Origin: Chryseomicrobium sp. FSL W7-1435
GTDB lineage: Bacteria > Bacillota > Bacilli > Bacillales_A > Planococcaceae
Assembly: GCF_038595005.1 (NCBI RefSeq)
Contig: NZ_CP151997.1
Span: forward strand, 1,426,001-1,490,000
Direction of reading: 5' to 3'
Length of the DNA stretch: 64,000 nucleotides
Of this stretch, positions 4,022-47,121 are shown in pieces; position 1 is the stretch's first letter, and each line of letters starts with the position of its first letter. The notes under the pieces were generated by a model. That model was not told the origin of the DNA. It saw only the letters and a program-made list of their open reading frames with translations, and searched no databases. A program made the translations under genes and the position numbers.

Positions 4022-4044
4022 GAGAATGAAAATACAACAGCCAT

Positions 4045-4271
4045 GACCGGGAAAAGTATAAAAAGATGGAATGGATCAGGGAGAATGTGGCACGACTGAA
4101 ACCACTTCCCATTCCCTTTTTAGAAGTTCACCCCAGGTAGCTGCCACTTAGACCAGAAATGTAAAGGTGGCCGGTTCCGAGCCGTTATTCGTTTGAGTGA
4201 TGATGCTTTGAGCATGATAACTAGGGTGGTACCGCGATGATAACTCGTCCCTTTTTGGGGCGAGTTTTTTG
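4045..4271 (+). ncRNA. T-box leader (phenylalanine) of pheST
   Basis: tRNA-sensing leader that reads uncharged tRNA-Phe. The conserved T-box AGGGTGGTACCGCG is at 4223-4236, and the following terminator (ACTCGTCCC...GGGGCGAGTTTTTT, 4243-4268) is the regulated hairpin. Stem I spans roughly 4045-4140; AGTA on its 5' side and GAAGTTCA on its 3' side form the specifier loop, with TTC (Phe codon) at 4127-4129 followed by the usual purine. Binding of uncharged tRNA to the T-box forms the antiterminator and lets transcription reach pheS. The 5' boundary is approximate. Confidence 0.92.
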
Positions 4272-22064: not shown

Positions 22065-22092
22065 AATCCTAATTTCATATTCACTTTACGTG

Positions 22093-22260
22093 AAGATAGA
22101 GGTGCGAGCGTCAACAGTATGATTTCCGAGGATGACAGATCCTATGAAGAAATCAGAAAGGGGCAATCGCCGAAATGAATCACTGCTGATCCAGTGCTTC
22201 GTTGGTCTTGTGTTGAACAAACCCAAGATTGTCAGAATACACATTCTGGAGGGCTATCTT
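22093..22260 (+). ncRNA. lysine riboswitch (L box)
   Basis: Lysine-sensing leader of lysC. P1 is AAGATAG (22093-22099) with CTATCTT (22254-22260); conserved core pieces are AGAGGTGCGAGC directly after P1, GAAAGGGGCAATCGCCGAA (about 22156-22174) and the GGAGGGCTATC closing segment. The expression platform is the terminator at 22292-22326. With lysine bound, P1 is stabilised and transcription stops before lysC. Confidence 0.93.
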
Positions 22261-22291
22261 GCATGGACATTTACTTTGACCGTGTTAGACA

Positions 22292-22354: not shown

Positions 22355-23584
22355 ATGGCAATTGTTGTAATGAAATTTGGAGGAACCTCAGTAGGTTCTG
22401 TTGAGCGTATTCGAAATGCGGCTCGTCGTATTATGCAAGAAGTGGATAGAGGGTACCAAGTAGTGGTCGTAGTATCTGCAATGGGTAAGACAACGGACCA
22501 TTTGGTACAACTCGCTGAAGACATCACATCTTCACCGTCAAAACGCGAGATGGACATGCTGTTATCGACGGGGGAGCAAGTATCGATGTCTCTTCTAGCT
22601 ATGGCCCTTGAAACACAAGGGTATCAAGCAGTTTCTATGACGGGCTGGCAAGCGGAGTTGCAGACTGAAAAAGTGCATCGCAATGCGCGAATTGTTTCGC
22701 TAAAAGGTGGCAAGATCCGTGCAAAATTAGATGCTGGAAATATTGTAGTGGCTGCCGGCTTCCAGGGCATCACGGAAGACGGGGAAATCACGACGCTTGG
22801 CCGCGGAGGCTCAGATACAACAGCCGTTGCCATTGCAGCAGCTGTTGGAGCAGAGCGCTGTGACATTTATACAGACGTCGACGGTGTTTACACGTCGGAC
22901 CCACGCTTTGTAACTGGTGCACGAAAATTGCATTCTATCGAGTATGATGAAATGCTTGAACTGGCAAATCTCGGAGCGGGAGTACTTCATCCACGAGCGG
23001 TTGAATACGCTAAAAACTATAAAATTCCCTTGACGGTACGTTCGAGTATATCAGAAGAAGAGGGAACAGTTATTGAGGAGGCAACATCTATGGAGTCCAA
23101 TCTAATCGTACGCGGCGTCGCTTTTGAGGCTGACGTAGTGCGTCTTACAATAGGCTATGAGAAAGCATTCAATGGATCCCTGGCCATGATTTTTACAACG
23201 TTAGCTCAGCACAACATTGATGTGGATATTATTGTGCAGTCCATTGTCGATGGCACGACACCAACTGTTTCATTTACGATTAAAAAAGAAGCACTATCGG
23301 AAGCGATTCAAGTATTAGAAGAGAAAAAGAAAGAACTCGGATTCCAAGTAGCTGATTTTGAGGTGGGCCTTTCAAAGGTATCGATTGTGGGTTCTGGTAT
23401 GGTATCGAATCCAGGTGTTGCAGCTCAAATGTTTGACCGTCTTCGTCAAGAGTCAATTCCGGTTAAAATGGTGAGTACATCCGAGATCAAAGTATCTGTG
23501 GTCGTTCCTCAGCAGCAAATGATCCAGGCAGCTAATGCGTTACACGAAGAGTTTCGACTTTCTGAAATTGAGGTTCAAGTTTAA
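22355..23584 (+). CDS. lysC: aspartokinase II, alpha subunit
   Basis: First enzyme of the aspartate pathway, phosphorylating aspartate on the way to lysine, methionine, threonine and diaminopimelate. The 409-residue protein has the kinase domain with KFGGTSVGS (7-15), a GRGGSDTTA signature (about 150) and YTDVDGVYTSDPR, then two C-terminal ACT domains (about 265-409) that bind lysine. The ATG at 22355 follows GGAGGAGATC; an upstream in-frame start lies in the terminator. A second in-frame start inside the gene probably gives the free beta subunit. Controlled by the lysine riboswitch. Confidence 0.95.
   Translation: MAIVVMKFGGTSVGSVERIRNAARRIMQEVDRGYQVVVVVSAMGKTTDHLVQLAEDITSSPSKREMDMLLSTGEQVSMSLLAMALETQGYQAVSMTGWQAELQTEKVHRNARIVSLKGGKIRAKLDAGNIVVAAGFQGITEDGEITTLGRGGSDTTAVAIAAAVGAERCDIYTDVDGVYTSDPRFVTGARKLHSIEYDEMLELANLGAGVLHPRAVEYAKNYKIPLTVRSSISEEEGTVIEEATSMESNLIVRGVAFEADVVRLTIGYEKAFNGSLAMIFTTLAQHNIDVDIIVQSIVDGTTPTVSFTIKKEALSEAIQVLEEKKKELGFQVADFEVGLSKVSIVGSGMVSNPGVAAQMFDRLRQESIPVKMVSTSEIKVSVVVPQQQMIQAANALHEEFRLSEIEVQV
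23090..23584 (+). CDS. aspartokinase II beta subunit (internal start within lysC)
   Basis: Inside lysC, GAGGAGG (23075-23081) lies 8 bases before an in-frame ATG at codon 246, so a separate 164-residue protein made only of the two ACT domains can be translated. In B. subtilis aspartokinase II the beta subunit arises from an internal start at about this codon and pairs with alpha. The ribosome site here is as good as that of lysC itself. Expression is inferred. Confidence 0.75.
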   Translation: MESNLIVRGVAFEADVVRLTIGYEKAFNGSLAMIFTTLAQHNIDVDIIVQSIVDGTTPTVSFTIKKEALSEAIQVLEEKKKELGFQVADFEVGLSKVSIVGSGMVSNPGVAAQMFDRLRQESIPVKMVSTSEIKVSVVVPQQQMIQAANALHEEFRLSEIEVQV

Positions 23585-23608: not shown

Positions 23609-23659
23609 TAAAGCCAGTAGTTCTCAGGATTGTGGTTCTGAGAAACTGCTGGCTTTTTG
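23609..23659 (+). terminator. terminator of lysC
   Basis: AAAGCCAGTAGTTCTCAG pairs with CTGAGAAACTGCTGGCTTT, followed by TTTGT. Very stable. Confidence 0.88.
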
Positions 23660-23728
23660 TATATGAAAAATTCTTAATAAAAAAGACGTCGGGACAAAAT
23701 ATAGTAATAAAACTTAACTAGTTACAAA

Positions 23729-23911
23729 GTTGAGTGGAGTGTAGGGGCTGACTCCAGTGGGATCAAAAGTCGGAATGTGAGACCCCGCAGGAGCCTGCGA
23801 CGAGGAGGCTCACAGCGCGCCCACGGAACGCAGCCCCGGAACGGAACTCAACATACACAAATAAATCAGCAAGTTTTCTAGAATTTACCCTAGAGAACTT
23901 GCTGATTTTAT
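23729..23911 (+). repeat. structured repeat element A, copy 1 (after lysC)
   Basis: About 180 bp made of a long branched stem-loop closed by GTTGAGT/ACTCAAC (23729-23852) and a terminator-like hairpin AAATCAGCAAGTT/AACTTGCTGATTTT (23863-23911). Inner pairings include GGGGCTG/CAGCCCC, CCAGTGGG/CCCACGG, GTGAG/CTCAC and the apical GCAGG-AGC-CTGC. A second copy lies after hemL (45805-45988) with compensatory changes, and a diverged inverted copy after folC. It resembles GC-rich intergenic repeats that I know to be widespread in Bacillaceae. No gene is seen between 23585 and 24079. Confidence 0.8.
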
Positions 23912-24037
23912 CCCAACCTCAAAGTCATAAAACCTTACTAGTAAAAACTATTTCCGTATTTCGACATAAAGACTATACAAACTAGTTACAATTGTGTGAA
24001 CAATTTCGACAAAAAACAACCAATTTTGAGCAGATAA

Positions 24038-45804: not shown

Positions 45805-45988
45805 GTTGAGTGGAGTGGAGGGACTGACTCCAGTGGGATTAAAAGCGTTACGTGAGGCCCTGCAAGAGCTTGCGACGAGGAGACTCACTACGCGCCCACG
45901 GAAAGCAGTCCCGGAACGGAACTCAACGCAAATAAATCAGTAGGTTCTCTGGAATTATTAAATCTAGAGTACCTACTGATTTCTTTTT
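45805..45988 (+). repeat. structured repeat element A, copy 2 (after hemL)
   Basis: Branched stem-loop 45805-45927 closed by GTTGAGT/ACTCAAC, then a terminator hairpin AAATCAGTAGGT/ACCTACTGATTT with CTTTTT (45934-45988). Compared with copy 1 the paired changes are GGGACTG/CAGTCCC for GGGGCTG/CAGCCCC, GCAAG-AGC-TTGC for GCAGG-AGC-CTGC, and CAGTAGG/CCTACTG for CAGCAAG/CTTGCTG. Same orientation relative to the upstream gene as copy 1. Confidence 0.8.
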
Positions 45989-46869: not shown

Positions 46870-46884
46870 AAGAAGCACATAGAT

Positions 46885-47121
46885 AAAATGCAACGAACGG
46901 GAAGAGTAGAGATTCCTCTGATCCAAAGAGAGAAGGCCAGCTGGTGAGAGGTCTTCGGTCATGAGTCACGAAGGTAGCCCGGGAGCAGCTGTTATGAACT
47001 TGAAAGTAGTAGCAGCCGGTGAAGAGCCGTTAGTGAATGAAGTGCATGCTTTTTTAAGCATGAATTAAAGGTGGTACCGCGATTATGCCCTCGTCCTTTT
47101 CCGAAGGATGGGGGTTTTTTG
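46885..47121 (+). ncRNA. T-box leader (valine) of valS
   Basis: T-box AAGGTGGTACCGCG at 47068-47081 followed by the terminator CCCTCGTCCTT/AAGGATGGGGG with TTTTTT (47088-47120). Stem I contains AGTAGAGA on the 5' side and GAAGGTAGCC on the 3' side; the specifier is GTA (Val) at 46974-46976, in the same GAAG-codon-purine context as the pheS leader. Uncharged tRNA-Val allows read-through to valS. The left boundary is approximate. Confidence 0.92.

Follow-up and report, generated by a model that had tools for sequence, protein, structure and literature searches.

A putative non-autonomous IS1182-type element that replaces terminator hairpins in Chryseomicrobium and carries an older, covarying core

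We analyzed 64,000 nt of the genome of Chryseomicrobium sp. FSL W7-1435 (hereafter, the window), in which a lysine riboswitch (22089–22264) lies upstream of lysC and T-box leaders occupy 4034–4255 and 46884–47101. Two copies of a structured repeat, Element A, are found downstream of lysC and hemL. A sequence-only reading of the window had placed them at 23729–23911 and 45805–45988 and had described in both an outer GTTGAGT/ACTCAAC stem, an inner stem, an apical hairpin and a separate hairpin; both the copies and their architecture were borne out. The three double changes claimed between the copies (GGGGCTG/CAGCCCC to GGGACTG/CAGTCCC, GCAGG/CCTGC to GCAAG/CTTGC, and CAGCAAG/CTTGCTG to CAGTAGG/CCTACTG) were all seen in the alignment. 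Copies 1 and 2 folded at −83.5 and −76.9 kcal/mol, respectively, against a shuffle mean of about −48 kcal/mol, and for each copy none of 200 shuffles folded as well.

Located by its terminal repeats and by alignment, copy 1 belongs to a whole MITE of 236 bp on the plus strand downstream of lysC (23685–23920). The left terminal repeat, GACGTCGGGACAAAAT (23685–23700, plus strand; genome positions 1449685–1449700), has two mismatches to the terminal-repeat pattern, and the right one, GAGGTTGGGATAAAAT on the minus strand (23905–23920; genome positions 1449905–1449920), has one. Between the repeats lie a structured core of 124 nt bounded by the outer GTTGAGT/ACTCAAC stem (23729–23852, plus strand; fold, alignment and 145.5 bits with model R1) and a terminator-like hairpin whose 5′ side is A-rich and whose 3′ side is T-rich (23863–23908, plus strand; fold and alignment), which, to judge from these sides, could act in both directions. 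The lysC stop codon ends at 23584, and a terminator-like hairpin read from the sequence at 23610–23658 (plus strand) is intact upstream of copy 1, so it was not replaced by copy 1. Behind lysC in the relative G001, another hairpin occurs further on, in a region that did not align cleanly with that of copy 1. The region behind lysC in G001 (L209) also contains short, imperfect copies of a GAGGGCACAAACCAGCCATTT-type repeat.

The core of copy 2 (123 nt; 45805–45927, plus strand; 135.6 bits with model R1) starts 24 nt past the end of hemL and is followed by a terminator-like hairpin (45934–45982, plus strand) and then CTTTTT. The position of this hairpin is that of the hairpin found directly behind hemL in G002 and G003, where AAAGCCTGTTTCC...GGAGA(C/T)AGGCTTTTT comes right after the stop codon. 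Copy 2 thus occupies the place of the predicted hemL terminator. No recognisable terminal repeats were found for copy 2 in the alignment. A simple terminator scan flagged neither the element hairpins of the two copies nor the lysC hairpin. A sigma-70 scan of both copies gave minus-strand sites only and no forward promoter, and no promoter for a core RNA was identified.

The 183-nt sequence of copy 1 was used as a query against the window's genome (G000; 2.71 Mb, one contig). It matched at least 40 distinct places (of 89 candidates, 40 were scored), and chance is therefore excluded. The 62 rows of this search comprised 42 forward readings (40 places, two of them split by an insert) and 20 backward hairpin readings of the same places. 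Four further copies were recovered through the terminal repeat, which brings the count in G000 to at least 44, decayed ones included. The hairpin was located in 33 of the 44 copies and both terminal repeats (at most four mismatches) in 30; a few copies, L030 and L129 among them, seem to consist of the core only. Near-identical dispersed copies were 99% identical over 180 nt.

When 30 copies were aligned with 110-nt flanks, conservation continued for 44 bp to the left of the interval first described (GAGGTTGGGACAAAAT plus about 28 nt) and for 9 bp to its right (ATTTTTGTCCCAACCTC), reaching the terminal repeats on both sides. Hence, the structure of the ~180-nt module stands, but 23729 and 23911 are not the element ends; the module is the interior of a MITE of ~236 bp that contains no transposase and exists in many dispersed copies. 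Its terminal repeat is 16 bp long (GAGGYTGGGACAAAAT), and the first repeat is followed by a left arm, the core (about 124 nt), a short linker, the hairpin (about 46 nt), and the second repeat. On the 3′ side of the 33 hairpins the T content averaged 8.7 per 12 nt, compared with 7.1 on the other strand. A minimal element, L208, consists of the repeats and the hairpin and has no core. The core is broken by another sequence in L205 and L207, and two more copies were split in the search with the 183-nt query. As a separate observation, another repeat (resembling TTAGATGTGRAG...GGCGTTC...CGAGTTGCGAACGCC) is interleaved with or inserted into cores at loci of G001–G003 (L138–L147, L209–L211, and L277) and lies inside the L205 and L207 cores. 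At L025 (G000, position 2225468), a run of GAGTT/GTTGA units adjoins the 5′ edge of the core.

The 16-nt terminal-repeat pattern, searched with at most two mismatches, gave 57 matches in G000 versus seven for a reversed control. Ten of the 57 form five pairs, each bounding one copy of an 1807-bp insertion sequence (IS); the two that share one orientation are identical, and the other three, which point the opposite way, were compared at their ends only. The terminal repeat of this IS, GAGGCTGGGACAAAAC, is the same as that of the MITE except for the last base, and the MITE ends and the five IS copies agree in 15 of the 16 bases of GAGGCTGGGACAAAAT/C. The product of the IS is a 534-aa transposase of the IS1182 family (NF033551, 413 bits, above the cut-off of 270), with Pfam matches to DUF772, DDE_Tnp_1, and DDE_Tnp_1_6. 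The IS carries a hairpin just inside each end and no core, and its hairpins differ from those of the MITE. Simple deletion within this resident IS therefore does not account for the MITE. In G012, which belongs to another genus, all ten copies read had the order repeat, core, hairpin, repeat, and nine were of equal length; that genome also has IS1182 copies (L248 and L263) bearing the repeat GAGGCTGGGACAAAAC. The part order was identical on reading at five loci (L291, L292, L294, L295, and L309) in further genomes of the same genus.

Orthologous regions were read at eight loci, namely three in the G000 cluster, hemL, and four in G012. At all eight, a terminator-like hairpin stood at the element's place in at least one relative, in comparisons between species with roughly 70–90% identity. 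A scripted search of the eight loci found a hairpin in 16 of 16 chosen element-free intervals, one of them weak with 7 bp (G012 site 3, in G058); these windows were placed after reading and excluded G001 at hemL and both G001 and G002 at G000 site 2. No hairpin was seen in G001 at hemL. The same search found a hairpin in none of the eight element-free joins of the filled flanks, which represent seven loci (one counted twice because of nested elements) and exclude the older G000 site 2. In the clearest case, G003 reads CCTAAAAAAA[24-nt stem-loop]GTTTTCTATTACAC and G000 reads CCTAATAAA[MITE]GTTTTGTATTACAC. The stem-loop lost in the clearest cases was 23–24 nt, the gain relative to the empty site was a complete element of 236–274 bp, and no target duplication was seen on reading filled against empty sites.

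The flanks were A-rich and T-rich in the 30 copies having both repeats. Pairing between the left and right flanks of these 30 copies was weak (p = 0.02, 0.04, 0.31, and 0.11 for 10, 8, 6, and 4 nt, respectively). Elements and their relatives were also found within one another: at one G012 site an element is nested in a second one whose ends are of the same type, and the hairpin of one element is interrupted by an IS1182 copy. At L219 (G055), an element sits at the same place in the other orientation. Recombination or gene conversion among terminators, with no transposition, might instead have distributed the copies, and their location at terminators and their terminator-like hairpins would fit such a process. 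However, the copies end at terminal repeats, their flanks are unrelated, and a complete element is gained relative to the empty site, which makes this explanation extremely unlikely. In G012, a group-II-intron-like element, so labelled from reading, was observed directly after a terminator hairpin (L235, 3598–4249); it has many relatives in G058 and G061.

The gene context of the element was determined with gene calls based on a home-made codon score, and all 44 copies of G000 entered the count. In the frame of the element, 43 copies were resolved, of which 28 lay between convergent genes, 11 between tandem genes of the same direction, three between tandem genes of the opposite direction, and one between divergent genes, with neighbours at distances of 709 and 861 bp. 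As a baseline, four of the 35 gaps of at least 20 bp in the window were convergent. In tandem contexts, 11 of 14 copies followed the gene direction. The ten copies of G012 comprised six convergent, two tandem same, two tandem opposite, and no divergent cases, and the five copies in other genomes of that genus comprised two, one, two, and none, respectively. The 18 copies of G001, mostly cores alone, were distributed as ten, five, two, and one. Contrary to the pattern elsewhere, the six cores of G022 comprised no convergent, one tandem same, no tandem opposite, and five divergent cases. The location of the two window copies downstream of biosynthetic genes, to which the sequence-only reading had drawn attention, is correct for lysC and hemL; given the 28 of 43 convergent copies and the 11 of 14 tandem copies lying along the gene direction, it seems to be a by-product of target choice.

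From these sequence comparisons, we consider it highly probable (about 0.87) that a non-autonomous IS1182-type MITE, inserting at terminators by stem-loop replacement, has Element A as its interior. In the mechanism we propose, an IS1182-family transposase would act in trans on the common terminal repeats. Upon insertion, a gene would lose the terminator hairpin at its 3′ end, and the element would be joined to the leftover A-rich and T-rich flanks without target duplication. As the element brings a hairpin with A-rich and T-rich sides of its own, it would probably restore termination; this would account for the survival of many copies between convergent genes and behind single genes. The covarying core, which may act as RNA, would ride inside as an older, family-wide module that other IS1182-type ISs also carry in their 5′ region.

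The core is family-wide: model R1 detected it in each of the 19 genera sampled and in 191 of the 200 genomes, frequently with at least 17 places per genome. The sequence-only reading had described a stem-loop plus terminator module; both parts are present, but the hairpin is an add-on to a core of ~124 nt (query positions 1–124) that is found alone in relatives and is older than the MITE hairpin. In a structure-blind alignment of 53 cores from six genomes and five genera, the 36 predicted pairs held in 97.2% of the cells. Two-sided changes occurred in 18 of the 36 pairs, amounting to 103 cells compared with 17.5 in shuffles (0 of 500 as high) and at most 20 in slid controls, which are lenient because the core structure was derived from the same alignment. 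The earlier argument from covariation that pairing is under selection was thus upheld, and the accompanying statement that a function is not established still holds for the core. None of the 4227 Rfam families, Bacillaceae-1 included, reached its gathering score on the window element or on six other core loci, and a permissive threshold gave only low-scoring, chance-like matches for copy 1. On Priestia megaterium plasmids (L364 and L367), the core lies under the annotated hypothetical proteins WP_080754389.1 and WP_205664564.1, which are probably spurious genes.

IS1182-type transposase sequence was present in 24 of the 138 core loci fetched. In 16 distinct loci the N-terminal part of the transposase lay near the core, and in all 16 the core was upstream and antisense; of the other eight loci, three rows repeat the 16, and in five the transposase sequence is a different fragment or belongs to a neighbouring element or a nested IS. 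The core-associated transposases fall into two lineages that are 21–23% identical to each other. In the second lineage, L250 scored above the NF033551 cut-off. In the first, a fragment of 110 aa gave 118 bits and was too short for the cut-off, and its relatives L240 and L242 scored above it. In G054, nine copies showed near-identity over a stretch that begins at the transposase start, includes the core and finishes at the element end, and in nine of nine, judged by eye, this end abuts a complete host hairpin. The G054 lineage therefore seems, from its junctions, to insert next to terminators without replacing them.

Three loci of G022, a genome in which an IS1182 search gave no match, have nothing in common beyond the core and at most about 25 bases next to it; therefore, the core seems able to move alone, as far as such sequence likeness can tell. 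For one stand-alone core of this genome (L164), the orthologous empty site could not be aligned well in relatives. Two further arrangements with paired cores were observed: an element of roughly 930 bp in G022 (L160–L162) whose two cores point outwards, and elements in G185 (L323–L327) that hold two divergently oriented cores separated by about 400 bp and have ends like TATAGGGAAACTG/CAGTTTCCCTATA.

Changes of Watson–Crick (WC) pairs in the core were counted by parsimony in a set of 172 matches, of which 135 were distinct, 123 were kept by pairing, and 121 by length. On the given strand, the 33 pairs that were at least 80% WC showed 49 changes to G-U versus 24 to A-C (p = 0.005). All 36 pairs gave 67 versus 25 changes, pairs at 90% WC gave 33 versus 16 (p = 0.02), and pairs at 95% WC gave 16 versus 10 (p = 0.33). 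The model pairs were taken from a fold of the given strand that allows G-U, which therefore helped the count towards G-U. When a plain alignment was used, the counts were 54 G-U versus 15 A-C for pairs of the forward fold, 20 versus 21, with no asymmetry, for pairs of the reverse-strand fold, and 13 versus 5 for the small set of pairs common to both strand folds. These counts lean towards selection acting on RNA from the given core strand, the one antisense to the transposase, although not with every choice of pairs.

The same counts bear on what the core does, a matter on which several readings are compatible with the MITE. The core palindrome may function as DNA only, as a cruciform bound by a transposase or as a decoy target for stem-loop-replacing elements, with covariation keeping a DNA hairpin intact. 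IS1182-type elements attack hairpins, according to the accessible text of PMC4923244 and PMC5678879, and the nested insertions in element hairpins, the proximity of cores to transposases from two divergent IS1182 lineages and the symmetric counts from the reverse-strand fold all agree with a DNA role. The excess of G-U over A-C with the model pairs favours one RNA strand, however, and the core is absent from the resident IS and from L208; we regard a purely DNA-based role as possible but doubtful. A role in the host, which would keep the module as a structured RNA (a 3′UTR element or a small RNA) with mobility secondary, is the view towards which the sequence-only reading inclined, and it concerns mainly the core. 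It would account for the strong covariation, the G-U excess on the given strand, the presence of the core in nearly all family genomes and the tandem copies that follow gene direction. Yet mobility is marked by the terminal repeats common with a complete IS and by the 99%-identical dispersed copies, different native hairpins were replaced, cores lie inside IS elements, the other two pair choices gave 13 versus 5 and 20 versus 21, and neither window copy has a flagged forward promoter, so that host use as the main explanation is quite unlikely.

A more specific and speculative proposal is that the core (about 124–130 nt) serves IS1182-type transposons as a functional RNA, and that these MITEs and at least two divergent IS1182 lineages have captured it. 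It would be located between the end hairpin and the transposase gene, be transcribed antisense, control the transposase or guide or time insertion at terminators, and also spread alone across the family. We think it unlikely that this proposal is right as a whole.

If the MITE reading is correct, many GC-rich intergenic repeats of G000 and of the genus of G012 are explained as terminator-swapping elements. Exchanging a terminator for its own hairpin would give such an element a quiet genomic life in which it rewrites transcript 3′ ends. A very common covarying core, with no Rfam match and tied to IS1182 transposons, has now been isolated, and its role is directly testable. No description of the element or of the core was found among the open-licence literature matches listed.

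ERIC and bcr1 are intergenic, palindromic repeats with tens of copies and no established role; their likeness to the element is one of description. Bhal-1, a stem-loop family of B. halodurans, is likewise intergenic, palindromic and present in tens of copies according to the accessible part of PMC2267715; at 74 nt it is shorter than the core, and the likeness is one of description, with a relation possible. The same source says that Bhal-2 contains CRISPR repeats. Bacillaceae-1 RNA (RF01690), as presented in the accessible part of PMC2864571, is also a structured RNA candidate of Bacillaceae, but, as the Rfam search indicated, its gathering score is not reached at the element or the other core loci. 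Prokaryotic MITEs in general (a review is PMC10969869) resemble the element in being short, non-coding and many-copied and in having the terminal repeats of a resident IS; the element differs from them in that it appears to replace a terminator and to bring a hairpin, and in that its core also occurs in other IS lineages.

The closest likeness is to IS1272 and TnSha1 of staphylococci, which, in the accessible text of PMC4923244 and PMC5678879, have an IS1182-family transposase, terminal repeats and hairpin targets that are often terminators, and at whose sites the stem-loop sequence is lost and target duplication is absent. For IS1272, an IS1182-family member, the former source reports hairpin targets that were RNA-seq-confirmed terminators in five of seven cases and were partly deleted without duplication. 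The latter terms this mode IR-replacing, gives target structures of 21–85 bp as well as non-IR targets, and indicates terminal repeats of possibly 16 bp for IS1272. The word 'MITE' is absent from the main texts of both papers. The element described here differs from IS1272 and TnSha1 in being small and non-coding, in having dozens of copies, and in carrying its own hairpin and a covarying core. On the sequence evidence the element follows the IS1272 mode of insertion, which is already known; what our comparison adds is a predicted multi-copy, non-autonomous vehicle that exchanges a hairpin for the one removed.
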